A program made the translations under genes and the position numbers. A model generated the notes under the pieces. The model was given only the letters and a program-made list of their open reading frames with translations, did no database searches and was not told where the DNA came from. From Ignavibacteriales bacterium (GTDB taxonomy: Bacteria > Bacteroidota > Ignavibacteria > Ignavibacteriales > Ignavibacteriaceae): DNA of 55,985 bases. Within the stretch, counting starts at the first letter, position 1. Each line of letters begins with the position of its first letter. Below, one piece after another: positions 16,857 through 44,739 of the stretch. Location: the NCBI GenBank assembly GCA_003141435.1, contig PLLW01000113.1:12232-68216 (forward strand), in the 5' to 3' direction.

Positions 16857-17569
16857 TGCTATTTTAGCCTCTGCAAAACATAACTTCCAAGAACATTTCA
16901 ACCCTATTATCTCCCCTCTAAACTAGTCCCAAAACGAGACAAATCGATAAAATTTACCCCTATATTCTACACGGCTCAGATGCGAGAGATGAGCGACTCA
17001 GATACGGCTCAGATAATACCCTCCCTTCACTGTCTCAAAATGTTCCATATAACCTAAAACATCTAATTTTTCTTACAACTTAAGGCTTTCGGGGGATGTA
17101 GAGATATGGACACTTTGCGACAAGATAAATGGCAGTCTATATCTCACAATAATTTTAACTACTTAATTAATAAAAAATATCCCATTGAAGTTTCTCAAGA
17201 ATATTCATGCTTTTATTTAAGAGAATAATTTAATATCATAAATCCTACAAATAAATCTTTGCCTTTCTACATAGAACAATTTAAGTTTGTAGAGTAGCTC
17301 TATAAATTGATCGGGATTTATGATAAGCTCATATTGATTCTATGCTATTCAAAGACAATTTCTCCCCGTAAATGCATAATTATAAAATATGTTTCCAAAA
17401 GTAAATTAAATGACATGTTTCATTTATAATATGTCAGCTATTTCTTTAGAATTGATATAAATTGTCTGATACCGCCGCTTATCGGCAATGGTATTATACC
17501 TTCTTTCCTATTTTTATTATTATGAAAGAATATAGTAAATAGAATGATAAAATATTATGTGAGGCAAAA
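16857..17569. other. 713-bp intergenic region without a gene
   Basis: No open frame with coding character is seen. The region holds the 11-bp-period array at 16967-17021 and, at 17469-17494, a hairpin (ATACC GCCG loop CGGC AAT GGTAT). It ends with the GAGG ribosome site of the metalloprotease gene. It is AT-richer than the molybdopterin genes before it. No clear T-tract terminator for moaE could be found. Confidence 0.6.
16967..17021. repeat. 11-bp-period tandem array A
   Basis: Five consecutive 11-bp units with consensus AGATACGGCTC begin at 16967, 16978, 16989, 17000 and 17011. Units diverge at one to several positions, but the 11-bp phase is exact. The unit ATGAGCGACTC at 16989 recurs with one mismatch in array B near 44.7 kb on the opposite strand. 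Confidence 0.65.
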
Positions 17570-36019: not shown

Positions 36020-39000
36020 CTAGCCATTCTCGCCGGTTAGGCGGGCAATTTGCAGAAGGCAAAACCTTAAAAGGTCCTGCTGTTTAGGTGATAATGCCTG
36101 CTCTTCAATTTTAATAATTCTCTCAACTTCTTTTATAGCGCGAATAATGTTAATGGGCACTTCAACCATTCCTTCTGAAATTACTGAGAGATATTCGAAA
36201 GCGGTTGCAAGGAATTGATGCATGTTTTCATCACCCGACATTTTTAATACATTTGACAGATCGGTGGGGAGCTTTAATTTCTTGGGCGCAAAAGAGAGCT
36301 CTTTTGTCTGCGGATTGGAAGACAATGAATATAATGCAATGGCTAATTCGACAAAACTTGCAACCCTTTGCAGTACCGGTTGTTCCAGTAAGTCCCACAT
36401 TTTTGCACGCCAGAATTTTACATCTTTAGGAACAAGCAGTAAGTTTTTAATTTCATCAAACCACTTTTTATCGACATTACCATTGATCACCGAAAGAAAT
36501 ATTCCGGGATCCGTGTTAAAGAAATCGGGCTGCAATACAATCGCAAGATCGGGACGGAGGGTTGGCAATAAATCAGAAATAAATTTATCTCCGTCAAAAA
36601 AGTCCATTGGGTTCAACCCATGTCTTCTTAAAAGCTCTCTTTGGAAAAATATTAAATATTTACCCATTGAATCGATATCTTCCCTGAGTGCAAGAAAGGC
36701 AGAATTGCCGGCGGGGAATGCATTTTCCATTCGATTCAAATAAGTTAAATCAACATCATGATAAATGCGCAAAGTGTGCAATATTTCATAGACGGGAAGA
36801 TTTGGTAAAATTCTGTCTTCAATTAAGCTAATGGATTCGCCCAAGTCAAAATATTTTTGGGAGAAGGTATCCAAAGCGCGGAATAATCCTGTTGTTAATT
36901 GGTTAATACCCAGCACGGCAGTTTGCGATTGATTATGAGATATTGCACGTAGAAGACTACCATAATGGGAAAATGGGATTGTCCCTGCAATTCTTTCAAG
37001 TATTTTTTGCCCAGCACCGCCTGAAGCTCCTTGTCCAGGGCGGACAGTAGGTCTATCCCTAAGAGGGGGAGTAGTGCGTGAAATGAAATATGAAATAATA
37101 TGAATACCGACAACGTCCTCTTCCCTTCCGTAAAGGATCTGCCTAAAGTTCTCGGTAACAATCGGCAAAAATTCATCAAAGAGATTTTCTTTTCTTCCTA
37201 CAGTAAGCCGTTCCAGTTCTTTTAGCCCGCGTGTCTTAAATTGCAGGCGGGTTTCGACAAGCGGTTCACCAGCGCGGATTATTTCTTGTTCATAAAACAT
37301 CTGGGCTTCTTTAACGTGATAGAGCAGCTGGGCTAATTCATTGACAGAAATATGACGCAGTTTTTCAGAAATGTTACTCTGAAAGGTGCGCAAATCACCC
37401 CCGGCAAAAACACCAATCAAAGGAGTGGCTGCATATTCAGTACTTTTTTTAGTTGACTCATTCAAATATTCGGAGAATCTATTCATTGAGTCTTCAGATC
37501 TAATAAATGCGGGCTGACCAACGACAGGGGAATAATATCCGCCCTGACGCTGCATCGGTTCGCCGCTTCCCATTTTCATTCTAACCATTCCCAGCAATCC
37601 TTTTTCAGCAAGCCAACTGGTTAATTGAAACTTGGCTTCTTTGTATAAGTTCATACCGGCAGTTTGCCCTATTTGCTGACTCAAATCAGAACCTGCGACA
37701 AACACTTCGGTAATTATTTCAGCAAATCTTTCACGGGTTTCCTGATTCAACCTTCTGCTTTGTAATGAGTATTCCCAAATTTTATTCAGGTAATTTTTAA
37801 GATTCTTTACCGAATCAGCATCTTCAAACAATGGTACCAGCCAGACGGAAGGAATTTCCAATTTAGGATTATCGCGAAGAATTTGCTCTCGTTGGGCGCG
37901 CAATTTCCTATCAAGAGATATCAACACCTCAGGCTTAGTAGACATGCTTACTTGCAGAGCCAATACCATCCCGGGGTTGCCGTATTTACCTGCAATTTCA
38001 TTTATCTCCATCATATTATGAAGCGTTGTGTCTATAGCAAACTGATCCTGGGCAGTAATAAGTTTTTGATGAATACGCAGGGTTATAGTAAAACGTTTCA
38101 GCAAATCCTTATACAGACAAATTTCTAAAGCCAGTTCCCGATTATTAATATTCTTTTGAATTAAAGGAAGCGATTGATGCAGAATCTTTCTTATTTTTTT
38201 ATTTAGAGAGAAATAATATTCGATAGTATCCTTTCGTTTTTTACGAAGGTCAAGCATTTTTCGTTCGAGGCGGTCATTATGGTGCCACAGAGAAGTGAGC
38301 GGATCACTTGCGATATGAAGCTGCATTCCCATCCGTCTAATTTTACCCGGTTTGACATTAAAGGGAAGGATTCCGTGATATCTTTTTTCAAGCTGCTGGG
38401 TAAGGCTTGTTATTTCATTCAATAGATAAGAGAATTGTTTATTAGTCTCCGGAAGTTTATCAATTTCAAGAAGCAGAGAAGAATCTATCTTAAAAGATTT
38501 ATCACTTTTTAAAAGCGATTGAAGCAATCTGCCCTGCCGGGCAACATTTTCAATCAGAACGGCTGCAACTAAACTGTGCCCCTGTCCCGACGGTCTATTG
38601 CTTCCATCCCAATCACTCCAAAAAGAGAGAAACGTTTGAAACGGTGTATTTGAGTGTAAGTTACTATAGTTTTCAGCAGTAATAATTGAATTCAAATCGA
38701 GGACCAATTCATCCGGTTCCTGACTTGAAACAATCGCCACATTCAATCCAAGAAATTCTTTTATTAATTCATCCGCCAATTGTTTAATCAGTGCCGGTAA
38801 AATAATTTGATTCTTAATTACGCATGCAATTAACTCTTCAAACAATAAATCGACTTTGAGCGAATACATTTGGGTTGGATGGACTGTCCGGTCATATAAT
38901 CTTTGCTTAAACTCATTTTTTCTTCTTTCCAAATTATCTTTAAAGAACTCTTTTTCAAGAGAATCAACCAGTCCTTTCCCTTTATCGGCCAAAGCCATTT

Positions 39001-41638
39001 CAATAGCTTCATTTATGATTGTCAGCCGTTCATTAAATTTCTGATTAAATATTGCCAGCCGTTCCGGTAAAAATCCTTCAATAAAATTCTTCTCATAAAG
39101 CGAATCCCGCAATAAATCGACATGGAGCTGAAATTGTTTTCCGTACCTGGAATTACATTCTTCGGAAATTTTCCGCTCTATGGAATTCCATTTAGCATAA
39201 AAATCATTATTTATAGGGGTTGTTTTTACGGCAAGCGGTTTTATCTCAAATTGTTTGCGATTATAATTTGCCGCCTCTTCACCGATCATTCTATTAAGAT
39301 CAATCAGAACTCTTCTTGTTTTTTTAAGGAGGGTTTCAGCGTTATCGGTACCACCGAGAGTTAAGCGGAATGTTTTACGTCCTGACTCAAAACCTTTTGC
39401 CGTCCGTGCAAAAGTAGAAAGAGGAATAAGACCTATACCCTGTCTTGCCAACCCAGAAGCCAGCCAATCGAGTGATAATCCTGAAGGTAATTTATTGATT
39501 ATCATTTGAGGATACATACTGCCTTTTGGCGCTTTAATATTTATACCAAATCTATTCCTATCATGAGGAAGATTGTCAGCCGCTTCTTTTAAGGAATTCA
39601 TCCTTTCCTCAAATATTGTATTACGAAGCTGCCAAAAAGCGTTGGCTGTTTCCGGTTTATTACGATAGAACATATACGCTAAAAATATAGCACCAATATT
39701 AGGTGCAACTGTTGAGCTGACATCCTTAAACTTTCTGAATAATTCACTATTACGAATTTCGATAACAGAGAGGCGCGCACCAGCAAACGAATCCGTCTTT
39801 GATACAGAATGAATAGTAATTAAGTAATTAGACTGATCTTCACTTATATAGCCATTTTTGAGAAGTTCGCAAGTTAACTGCCGGATTGTCTTTATCTGTA
39901 TTAAAACGGAGAGCGGAACAACGTTCTGGTAAGAAAGGTCGTCAATGATGAATATATTTCTTTCAAGCAGCCATTTTATTAATCGTTTTAAATCACTGCT
40001 GTTGAATACCTGTCCAGTTGCATTGTGAGGATTGTTGAGAGCAACCGCGCCATATTTATTCCAGTTTGGATCCCGGGATATTTTATTATCGACTGCGGCA
40101 ATAATGCCATCAATATCAAGTTCAAAATCATCCGTAAGAGGGACAACGGAAACTGAGGGGAAGCAATGTTCATACGTCCAACTTAAATCCGGAATCACCA
40201 CTTCTTTTATTCCGCAGTGAAATCCGAGCAAACCCAAGCCAGAGCGTGATGATCCACTGACTACCAGACAATTATTTTTCCTGTATTCCGGATGATGTTT
40301 TAAGAATGAATGAAGAAAACTGTTTGTTAATTCCTCAGCCCAATCCACAGAATCGATATTTTCGATACACCGGTCAAGAAGATCATTTATTTTAGTACTT
40401 GAAAACTCATCGAAAGAAAATATAGATGAAGCCAACTCTGATCTTTTAGCAAGGTTTGTTTCTATTTTGGAAACATTGTCAGAGATGTTTTCGATAAAGT
40501 GCGCTTTCTTATTAATTATTGAATTTAACCTATCTTCAATATTATTGAAATAAACTTCACCAATATTGCTGCCAATAATGGGAACGGGGAAAGATTCATT
40601 AGCCGGTGCAATCTCTAATTTGTTTTCTTTAAGAATGTGATTATTAGAGATCAACTTTTCTTTAATAATGAAGGAGAGCAATTCAACTTCAGATGCGGAA
40701 GGAGTACCTTTCAACTGGAAATGGATATTTTCTATAACCTTAACAAAATCGGAATTGCCAGCCAAAAAGACAATAGACAGATTTTTTAATAAAGGAGAGA
40801 ATATTTCCGGAGTCAGCAAACGAAGGACCCGATTCATCATTTTGGCTTCTCTTGCAAGAGAGAGATGGTTTGGGGCATTATTGACTTCAATAAAGAAAAG
40901 AGGGTACTCCAGACTCAATTGTCTTAGACCTCTTCTTGTATCTTCTAAAGTATTCTTACCCAGCAATAAAAAGGTTGGAACATCCGGTGAATCAGATAAG
41001 TACTGGCAAAGGTGTTCAATTAATGTTGTTTCATTTTCTGATAAAGCCTTGAATCCGAGTCCAGGGAATTGCTGTAAATGGGGGGGCAGATCAATTGCGA
41101 ACAATAGAATATTTGCAGGAAGATTTACAAGATATTCTGATAAAGCATGGAATAATATTCGCAGAGCTTCAAAAATGCCGCCAGACGATAATATAATTTC
41201 ACGGTTGCCGGATGATTCGCCCAGATTATATGATAATGCTTCCTGCTGATTTTTAATGAGCCAATCATTAAAATACTTTACAAGGTAATTGGGTTCTCCT
41301 TTTTTAAAACCGCCGCGAGACATGTATGGTGCGCTTTTATTGATGAGATTAACAAAGAATTCTAATTTCGATTTTTCATTAGAATTCCATTCAAGGTGTT
41401 CAATAATTGCATCAAGATCATCTTCGTTGAATTCTTCTTTTAGAAAATCAATTCCTAAAATCATCCGTAAATACGCAGAGGAAAGCCTTTTATCCTGTAC
41501 AGGATTTCCTATATGAAAGTTGACTTTTTCCTCTGCCGGGACAGACGAAGAAGCAGTAGCCTCACTTACTTCGGAGACTTTAGCCGCTTTTACCGGTTTA
41601 AGTTTAAAATATTCCACCGGATCAGTATATTTTATCAT
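36020..41638 (-). CDS. Giant fusion: PLP aminotransferase plus divergent phosphoenolpyruvate carboxylase
   Basis: 1872 residues in one frame. Residues about 1-430 look like a degenerate aminotransferase domain (HIGNPVQDKR, ILSSGGIFEALRILFHAL). Residues about 430-830 are a fold type I aminotransferase with N539 in NNPHNATGQ, IFIIDDLSYQN and PLP lysine K614 in SVSKTDSFAGARLSV. Residues about 850-1872 align in order with bacterial PEPC: TVHPTQ (H920; TAHPTE in E. coli), FWSDWDGSNRP (FTSWMGGDRDGNP), LALQVSMSTKPEVL (YVISMAKTPSDVL), VPLFEDADS (E1272), VFVAGSDLSQQ (D1318), GSGEPMQRQGG (R1364), IPFSHYGSLLRAI and a C-terminal glycine. The catalytic His and both metal ligands are kept. The Lys after the SD motif (K546 in E. 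coli) and the Arg of RQES are replaced. The natural product would be oxaloacetate converted to aspartate, but altered activity is possible. Confidence 0.8.
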   Translation of the reverse strand: MIKYTDPVEYFKLKPVKAAKVSEVSEATASSSVPAEEKVNFHIGNPVQDKRLSSAYLRMILGIDFLKEEFNEDDLDAIIEHLEWNSNEKSKLEFFVNLINKSAPYMSRGGFKKGEPNYLVKYFNDWLIKNQQEALSYNLGESSGNREIILSSGGIFEALRILFHALSEYLVNLPANILLFAIDLPPHLQQFPGLGFKALSENETTLIEHLCQYLSDSPDVPTFLLLGKNTLEDTRRGLRQLSLEYPLFFIEVNNAPNHLSLAREAKMMNRVLRLLTPEIFSPLLKNLSIVFLAGNSDFVKVIENIHFQLKGTPSASEVELLSFIIKEKLISNNHILKENKLEIAPANESFPVPIIGSNIGEVYFNNIEDRLNSIINKKAHFIENISDNVSKIETNLAKRSELASSIFSFDEFSSTKINDLLDRCIENIDSVDWAEELTNSFLHSFLKHHPEYRKNNCLVVSGSSRSGLGLLGFHCGIKEVVIPDLSWTYEHCFPSVSVVPLTDDFELDIDGIIAAVDNKISRDPNWNKYGAVALNNPHNATGQVFNSSDLKRLIKWLLERNIFIIDDLSYQNVVPLSVLIQIKTIRQLTCELLKNGYISEDQSNYLITIHSVSKTDSFAGARLSVIEIRNSELFRKFKDVSSTVAPNIGAIFLAYMFYRNKPETANAFWQLRNTIFEERMNSLKEAADNLPHDRNRFGINIKAPKGSMYPQMIINKLPSGLSLDWLASGLARQGIGLIPLSTFARTAKGFESGRKTFRLTLGGTDNAETLLKKTRRVLIDLNRMIGEEAANYNRKQFEIKPLAVKTTPINNDFYAKWNSIERKISEECNSRYGKQFQLHVDLLRDSLYEKNFIEGFLPERLAIFNQKFNERLTIINEAIEMALADKGKGLVDSLEKEFFKDNLERRKNEFKQRLYDRTVHPTQMYSLKVDLLFEELIACVIKNQIILPALIKQLADELIKEFLGLNVAIVSSQEPDELVLDLNSIITAENYSNLHSNTPFQTFLSFWSDWDGSNRPSGQGHSLVAAVLIENVARQGRLLQSLLKSDKSFKIDSSLLLEIDKLPETNKQFSYLLNEITSLTQQLEKRYHGILPFNVKPGKIRRMGMQLHIASDPLTSLWHHNDRLERKMLDLRKKRKDTIEYYFSLNKKIRKILHQSLPLIQKNINNRELALEICLYKDLLKRFTITLRIHQKLITAQDQFAIDTTLHNMMEINEIAGKYGNPGMVLALQVSMSTKPEVLISLDRKLRAQREQILRDNPKLEIPSVWLVPLFEDADSVKNLKNYLNKIWEYSLQSRRLNQETRERFAEIITEVFVAGSDLSQQIGQTAGMNLYKEAKFQLTSWLAEKGLLGMVRMKMGSGEPMQRQGGYYSPVVGQPAFIRSEDSMNRFSEYLNESTKKSTEYAATPLIGVFAGGDLRTFQSNISEKLRHISVNELAQLLYHVKEAQMFYEQEIIRAGEPLVETRLQFKTRGLKELERLTVGRKENLFDEFLPIVTENFRQILYGREEDVVGIHIISYFISRTTPPLRDRPTVRPGQGASGGAGQKILERIAGTIPFSHYGSLLRAISHNQSQTAVLGINQLTTGLFRALDTFSQKYFDLGESISLIEDRILPNLPVYEILHTLRIYHDVDLTYLNRMENAFPAGNSAFLALREDIDSMGKYLIFFQRELLRRHGLNPMDFFDGDKFISDLLPTLRPDLAIVLQPDFFNTDPGIFLSVINGNVDKKWFDEIKNLLLVPKDVKFWRAKMWDLLEQPVLQRVASFVELAIALYSLSSNPQTKELSFAPKKLKLPTDLSNVLKMSGDENMHQFLATAFEYLSVISEGMVEVPINIIRAIKEVERIIKIEEQALSPKQQDLLRFCLLQIARLTGENG

Positions 41639-42783: not shown

Positions 42784-42858
42784 TTAGTTGTTGTATATTA
42801 TCCCATATCTTCTGTTAAAGTCTTTTGCTAACGAGTTTTTAAACTCTAAGTAGTACAT
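42784..42858 (-). pseudogene. Remnant of a RelE/ParE-like toxin gene
   Basis: A 24-codon frame, MYYLEFKNSLAKDF then NRRYGIIYNN and a stop. The first half matches the usual RelE start (MYxLEFxxSAxKDL) and the second half resembles the C-terminal YRIIYEI strand, so the middle appears to be deleted. It begins with TGATG stop/start overlap after the Phd-like frame, the normal order of an antitoxin-toxin pair. The toxin is surely inactive. Confidence 0.5.
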
Positions 42859-43143
42859 CAGGCTAATTTAAATTTCTTTTTAAAATCAGCCTCGCTAATT
42901 ACTGGTTCATTCTCCCTTTTTCGAATTATTTTAATGCATTTAGCGTCTTCTATTAATTCAATCATGGAAGTATATACTTTATAATCAAGTAAAACGCTTT
43001 TAGGTCTGCCGTTTTTAGTATATAGAATTTGCTCATTTGGATTTATCGTTAACATAATTTTACCTTCTGTCAAATGTCAATATAACAATTCTATCTAAAA
43101 TCTTAAAGACCTTAGCTTTGGAATCTGCCAGAGAAATAGTCAT
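42858..43143 (-). pseudogene. Frameshifted Phd/YefM-type antitoxin gene
   Basis: Two frames together read as a Phd antitoxin. The upstream frame from ATG 43143 gives MTISLADSKAKVFKILDRI, very like the Phd DNA-binding N-terminus, then terminates at 43060-43062. In another frame, beginning at about 43073 (TTG) or 43055 (ATG, with AGAAGG before it), NEQILYTKNGRPKSVLLDYK and VYTSMIELIED continue the antitoxin. A frame change with a short insertion splits them. The downstream part (71 codons) could still be translated but would lack the DNA-binding segment. Confidence 0.55.
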
Positions 43144-43270: not shown

Positions 43271-43272
43271 AG

Positions 43273-43345
<73 letters not shown>

Positions 43346-43401
43346 ATATTTAGTTAATAAAGATACTGATTTATTGGTGGTAAGTCAAATAAGGAGTATG
43401 G

Positions 43402-44535
43402 CGGTAGTGTCTCAGTTTTAATTTATTAAGGGAATAATATGAAAAATAGATTAATAGGTCATATTATCCTTAACGTTTCCCTCTACTCCACTTTTGAATT
43501 TATTCGGCTTAAGACCCACGGTAATAATCACAACATTTTTTGGGGGGTGGGTTTCCCCTATATCATATCTAACGTCAATATTGTTTTCCTTAAATATTTC
43601 CAGCAATTGGTCGGAAACATTGTATTTGTGCGTGGATTTCTCCTCCTCATACCTTTGAGGAGTGGGAAAGTACGTGCTATCAATAAGGGGGTAATCAAGT
43701 GCCGTGAAGGAAACTCCATCTCGTATAGTCTCATCAAATTTAGTCGCCTCATACTTAGATTTCCACCCAGCCATTCGTACCATTGTATTAATCATGCCCA
43801 TAAATCGGCGAGCTTCAAAATCAGGCACATATCGGATAATGGCTGTATAGTTTTTAAAACGATTAAGTTTCTTGGAGGACATGGATTGTTCAAGACTTCG
43901 TGGCGCAAGGTCTTTTTGCATTTGCATCACATTCGTCTTTTCTTGTTCCAAATTCATCATGAGCTGTATGTTCTGTTGTTCAAGCAAATCAGATTTATTT
44001 TTAAGAATTTCAGAATTGTTTTTAAGAATTTCGGTCTTTTCGTTAGTTTCTGCTGCTTGCAATTGAGTTTGAGAGATTGTCTTTTCATTTTCAGAAAGAG
44101 TCATATTCGTACTTTGCCGATATAGGGCGAAATTAGAATCTTTAATTGATGACACCTTTTTATTAAGATAAATAGATACAACAGTTAATATTAACGTAAG
44201 AGATAATGATATGATATACGCTAAGTTGATCGCACTAACCCAAGTTTCTAATGTAGATGTGTTTGATAATTCAGCCATATTCCTTGTGTCCTTAACGTCC
44301 ATATTGATAATTATATGTTGTTGCGTTTTTATGATAAGGTTTGTTATTAAATCAAAGAGAAAACCAAAAATATTTCCTTGAAGAATTAAGATAATTTACT
44401 CATTAGTTGTAAGCAAAAGCAAACAAACGGAGTGTTTATTTTTATATGGTTTGGGTTTGATGGGGCGGAAACGCTATCTATCAAGCAGTTTAGCTAAATC
44501 TTTAATATTCCACAAATCAAACTGAGACACTACCG
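43402..44535. mobile_element. 1134-bp TIR element with 5-bp target duplication and no transposase
   Basis: The left end CGGTAGTGTCTCAGTTT (43402-43418) and the right end AAACTGAGACACTACCG (44519-44535) are perfect 17-bp inverted repeats. Both are flanked outside by the direct repeat TATGG (43397-43401 and 44536-44540), the expected 5-bp target duplication. Between them is one gene, on the minus strand, for a membrane coiled-coil protein. No transposase frame exists, so the element would need to be mobilised in trans. The IS family of the ends cannot be named from sequence alone. Confidence 0.85.
43451..44302 (-). CDS. Membrane-anchored coiled-coil protein, cargo of the TIR element
   Basis: 283 residues of unknown family. 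One membrane helix near residues 24-50 (LAYIISLSLTLILTVVSIYL) is followed by a coiled coil (about 75-130) with the local repeat ILKNNSEILKNKSDLLEQQN. A C-terminal globular domain (about 140-283) contains WKSKYEATKFDETIRDG, FKENNIDVRYDIG and PPKNVVIITVGLKPNKF. Start at ATG 44302; an ATG at 44278 (MAELSNTSTLE) with AAGGAAT before it is an alternative. It is the only gene inside the TIR element and lies 33 bp from its left end. It shows no transposase or nuclease motif. A role in defence or exclusion has been seen for other small membrane coiled-coil cargo proteins, but there is no direct evidence here. Confidence 0.75.
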   Translation of the reverse strand: MDVKDTRNMAELSNTSTLETWVSAINLAYIISLSLTLILTVVSIYLNKKVSSIKDSNFALYRQSTNMTLSENEKTISQTQLQAAETNEKTEILKNNSEILKNKSDLLEQQNIQLMMNLEQEKTNVMQMQKDLAPRSLEQSMSSKKLNRFKNYTAIIRYVPDFEARRFMGMINTMVRMAGWKSKYEATKFDETIRDGVSFTALDYPLIDSTYFPTPQRYEEEKSTHKYNVSDQLLEIFKENNIDVRYDIGETHPPKNVVIITVGLKPNKFKSGVEGNVKDNMTY

Positions 44536-44617
44536 TATGGCTTACTGTTATATGCTGGTCGATATAGGTCGGCAAATATATCACTTACTCTCAGGTGATT
44601 TGGTGGGAAATAAAATA

Positions 44618-44673: not shown

Positions 44674-44739
44674 GAAATGGATCTGTGTCGTATCTTTGAT
44701 GCATCTGAGTCGTATCTGTGTCGTATCTGAGTCGCTCAG
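44674..44739. repeat. 11-bp-period tandem array B
   Basis: Six consecutive 11-bp units begin at 44674, 44685, 44696, 44707, 44718 and 44729. The plus-strand consensus is GAGTCGTATCT, the reverse complement of AGATACGACTC, nearly the consensus of array A (AGATACGGCTC) about 27.7 kb away. The array lies between the TIR element and the oxidoreductase operon. No ORF crosses it convincingly. Confidence 0.65.

Follow-up and report, generated by a model that had tools for sequence, protein, structure and literature searches.

In the ISfinder grouping, the IS1 family includes members with a single-ORF transposase, and MIC231 is tied to IS231 of the IS4 family. Derivatives of insertion sequences (IS) that lack a transposase, namely MITEs and mobile insertion cassettes (MICs), have already been described, the type of the latter being MIC231 of Bacillus cereus (PMC3129680), and IS elements bearing passenger genes are termed transporter IS, or tIS (PMC3129680; PMC7986276). 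The window examined here, a 55,985-nucleotide stretch of DNA from an Ignavibacteriales bacterium, contains a further example of the transposase-less kind of cassette, now with IS1-family ends. As in other mobile insertion cassettes, IS ends and a target duplication surround a gene other than a transposase and no transposase is present; unlike MIC231, the cassette has ends of the IS1 family, and its mobilisation is putative. Like tIS, sister elements that share these ends combine a transposase with passengers, whereas the window cassette has no transposase. The same lack sets it apart from the single-ORF members of the IS1 family, which it resembles in a duplication within the range of 7-9 bp and in the PF03400 transposase of its sisters, a protein that the NCBIfam IS1 model scores below its cut-off. 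It is non-autonomous and has short terminal inverted repeats (TIRs) and a target duplication, as does a MITE, but is larger and carries an intact gene. The reading advanced here with high confidence is that of a non-autonomous IS1-family element, a mobile insertion cassette most likely moved by a transposase acting in trans. With an identifiable transposase family now linked to this otherwise anonymous cassette, such mobilisation can be tested.

Structure and site of the cassette

The cassette occupies positions 43403-44534 of the window (1132 bp). Its left TIR, GGTAGTGTCTCAGTTT (43403-43418, forward strand), is 16 bp long and has its exact complement, with no mismatch, in the right TIR (44519-44534, reverse strand), and the 7-bp target duplication GTATGGC is found at 43396-43402 and again at 44535-44541. 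These ends fit GGnnnTG, the terminal pattern of the IS1 family. The borders were drawn from the sequence with guidance from 60 related elements bearing 8-bp duplications; this parse is preferred because, in related elements, the base just outside the terminal GG/CC is often not the same at both ends and belongs to an 8-bp duplication. An earlier note on this DNA had described perfect 17-bp TIRs, a 5-bp TATGG duplication and an element of 1134 bp at 43397-44540. The element, the exactness of its ends and the presence of a duplication are all borne out, and the lengths and borders are revised: the outer C/G pair of the 17-bp reading is part of the duplication, and the same letters are split differently.

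Within these borders lies one intact gene, P0001 (43451-44302, reverse strand), a single ORF of 283 amino acids, and a profile search with all filters off found no trace of a transposase inside the cassette, in agreement with the earlier description of a single non-transposase cargo gene. Upstream of the gene is a non-coding region (44303-44518) with one promoter-like match (44337-44310, reverse strand) that does not rise above chance.

The insertion adjoins tRNA-fMet (43272-43345), as had been observed. Of the dead toxin-antitoxin module also reported nearby, the antitoxin side is seen in an ORF of 71 amino acids (42858-43073) that is RelB/Phd-like by sub-threshold Pfam matches only; no toxin ORF of at least 60 amino acids lies beside it. 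The cassette is absent at this place from a genome of the same genus, G001, which matches the window at 96% on the tRNA-fMet side as far as GGAG, bases that immediately precede the duplication or sit at its edge; from there, G001 has approximately 240 bp before sequence homologous to the next gene, where the window has approximately 1450 bp. The exact empty site cannot be read in G001 owing to divergence of the flank on the right side of the junction; the uninterrupted site would be expected to be AAGGAGTATGGCTTACTG with a single GTATGGC. The comparison with relatives proposed in the earlier note thus yields an absence without a legible junction, and its description of the insertion as recent holds only in the sense of being younger than the split from G001. 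On the other side of the tRNA, a HEPN/nucleotidyltransferase pair in G001 (L218:198-883) stands where the window has its RelB-like remnant, which is why the spot can be regarded as accessory, as was proposed.

These data bear on whether the inverted ends could be a chance occurrence or a regulatory hairpin beside a vertically inherited gene. When the whole window was scanned for inverted pairs 12 bp or longer that are bordered by an exact 7-bp repeat, the cassette was the sole match, and 60 Markov shuffles of the window returned none. The element is missing from G001, the gene is present in only 2 of the 164 genomes of the order, and exact ends and duplications recur across phyla (see below). 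A distant homologue of P0001 in the same bacterial family (G015) speaks for vertical inheritance, yet this explanation is already contradicted by the remaining evidence and is considered extremely improbable.

Two further features of the window were noted. A short dispersed repeat resembling TCTGTGTCGTATCTGAGTCG occurs beside the cassette (44677-44731), farther off in the window at 16994-17013, and in other parts of the genome (C48, C65), with none expected by chance. A very long single ORF of 1872 amino acids occupies 36020-41638 on the reverse strand, and its middle part appears aminotransferase-like by eye.

Sister elements and their transposase

The ends of the cassette are widespread. Exact matches to the 17-letter end were found in 64 IMG/VR viral contigs, and genome contigs yielded at least 119 stretches having the 16-bp end plus one more fixed base; the possibility, entertained in the earlier note, that the ends are found nowhere else is thereby dismissed. 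Among the matches listed, carriers of the 16-bp end belong, going by the titles of their records, to Pseudomonadota, Bacteroidota, Acidobacteriota, Nitrospirota/Nitrospinota, cyanobacteria and others. A set of 63 paired-end elements, the window cassette included, was chosen from these matches for exact duplications, a few of its entries (L024, L061, L065) looking like one insertion in several contigs. The duplication is 8 bp long in 60 elements of this set, 7 bp in two (one being the window cassette) and 9 bp in one. With a profile of the approximately 290-residue protein shared by sister elements, a transposase or its remnant was detected in 46 of the 63, several sisters keeping remnants only, and none in the other 17, again including the window cassette. 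Six further transposase-less elements among these matches have one main ORF, which in two of them encodes a RibD_C-like reductase and a methyltransferase, respectively.

The transposase of the sister elements matches Pfam PF03400 (IS1 transposase) above cut-off, and several of its plasmid homologues are annotated as 'IS1 family transposase'. The IS1595 family, an initial guess, was ruled out: in NCBIfam the best match is IS1 (E = 6.4e-20) as opposed to IS1595 (E = 3.5e-6), both below the curated cut-offs and IS1595 by a wide margin, and the Pfam assignment is to IS1. Judged by these profile matches, the transposase is a member of the IS1 family. Ends identical to those of the cassette, at 16 bp, flank PF03400 transposases, the 7-bp duplication falls within the 7-9 bp of related elements, and the cassette holds at least one other gene and no transposase gene. 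The earlier proposal of a transposase-less cargo element is accordingly upheld: its ends are those of a large IS1-family group in which sisters with and without a transposase share both ends and duplication length, and G001 is without it. Among the points that count against the mobile-cassette reading are that the duplication, at 7 bp, falls short of the 8 bp usual in the family, and that autonomous elements of the same order (L235, L237) have another end, GGTAGTGTCCTAATTT, related to but different from GGTAGTGTCTCAGTTT. A 7-bp duplication is also found at one same-order autonomous element.

Mobilisation and origin

The host assembly (3.08 Mb in 123 contigs) is 93% complete, and within it neither a second copy of the cassette nor a match to a partner transposase was found, which also counts against that reading. 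A cognate transposase in the same genome is usual, although a cassette acquired horizontally does not require one. The transposase search itself works, given that the same search matched eight other genomes. The search with the end that had been suggested for finding a partner IS and further copies therefore comes back empty in the 93% complete host assembly and succeeds elsewhere, in sister elements with the same end. Ten genomes among the matches listed hold transposase-less elements, and an intact homologous transposase accompanies them in three (G761, G762, G765), partial copies in three, and none in four. In G765, the intact transposase gene is flanked on both sides by the exact 16-bp end that also occurs in its cargo-only methyltransferase cassette, the other end of which differs by two bases.

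Given these negative results in the host assembly, mobilisation in trans is something we infer; an IS1-family transposase acting in this way would be the most economical account. The cassette, or a transposase since lost, would have arrived by horizontal transfer; a DDE transposase of the IS1 family, acting in trans, would recognise the two identical 16-bp ends, and the 1132-bp segment would be inserted between tRNA-fMet and the next gene with duplication of 7 bp. The cargo would be expressed as a coiled-coil protein that is anchored in the membrane and has an alpha/beta domain at its C-terminus.

The cassette might instead be a deletion derivative of an autonomous IS1-type transposon that moved complete with the gene as passenger and then lost its transposase in place. 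The sisters that retain only transposase remnants would suit such a history, as would the passenger-bearing IS1-type elements seen in genomes of the same order. The window cassette retains no such remnant, however, and no homologue of P0001 was found in an autonomous element, so that this course of events is regarded as rather unlikely. For the mobile cassette moved in trans, the source is probably further away than the order's own autonomous elements, as the ends of the latter differ (GGTAGTGTCCTAATTT) and those of the cassette equal the cross-phylum consensus.

Cargo of the cassette and of its sisters

P0001 has a hydrophobic transmembrane helix at approximately residues 20-46 and is predicted to form a continuous helix over residues 15-132 (helical/coiled-coil), followed by a weakly predicted alpha/beta C-terminal domain at approximately 141-265. 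The AlphaFold model, built from two sequences, has a mean pLDDT of 64. The architecture proposed earlier is seen again, with one transmembrane helix, a coiled coil, here a long one, and a C-terminal domain. A fold search of the PDB with this model gave nothing significant. The model did match the viral protein A0A516ME84 (E = 1.5e-6; TM-scores 0.34/0.47), a match treated as weak because the confident part of the model is one long helix. At the sequence level, P0001 has no match in Pfam (up to E = 1), PADLOC (up to E = 10) or PDB sequences (up to E = 1), none in IMG/VR, phages or solved structures at the E-value limits used, and in NCBIfam weak matches below cut-off only (best E = 0.034). Its sole convincing homologue is the 484-residue protein of G015 (E = 1.7e-11), which has the C-terminal domain in common with P0001 at 33% identity and lies outside any recognised element. 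Weak matches to a Haloarcula plasmid (E = 2), to a stretch of G531 running over stop codons and to an unrelated peptidase-like gene of G572 were taken as chance.

Candidate anti-phage systems are among the cargo of sister elements: an HTH-M78 protein in L197 is PD-Lambda-2_B-like in PADLOC (nearly full length; E = 7.7e-44), an AAA ATPase in the IS1-type element L033:3757-7594 matches HEC-04 (nearly full length; E = 6.6e-53), and SocA-Panacea, HTH-M78, NYN and DUF1828 proteins are also found among the sisters. From this company, P0001 might tentatively be guessed to be an accessory sensor or a stress- or defence-type protein. The narrower idea that these elements spread anti-phage or toxin-antitoxin type systems and that P0001 belongs to one of them draws on the same PD-Lambda-2_B-like and HEC-04-like proteins and their companions, and is thought somewhat less likely still: P0001 stands alone and has none of the PADLOC or Pfam matches of a known defence gene, and defence cargo is not a rule, since other single-gene cassettes hold ordinary enzymes such as the reductase and methyltransferase above.

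More speculatively, the cross-phylum IS1-type population with its one nearly invariant 16-bp end could be a shared gene-capture platform, in which a common transposase would move in trans interchangeable cassettes of one or several genes, many being defence or toxin-antitoxin modules, with P0001 as an undescribed membrane-anchored member; we view this as a doubtful proposition. Across these widespread IS1-type elements, the shared end can serve to search for small mobile cargo genes, some of them candidates for a role in defence.

Two sets of passengers recur among the sisters. One pair, made up of a RelE/HigB-like ORF and an HTH-M78 protein, is common to three IS1-type elements (L074:6685-10427, L126:2693-5942 and L197:589-3931), the first and last of which also have a third ORF in common, and these may be IS1-borne defence systems of the PD-Lambda-2 type. 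Proteins with a P63C domain, assigned by Pfam scans in L054 and L120 and by sequence similarity in L138, L141 and L150, are likewise a recurrent passenger, and L120 is transposase-less.
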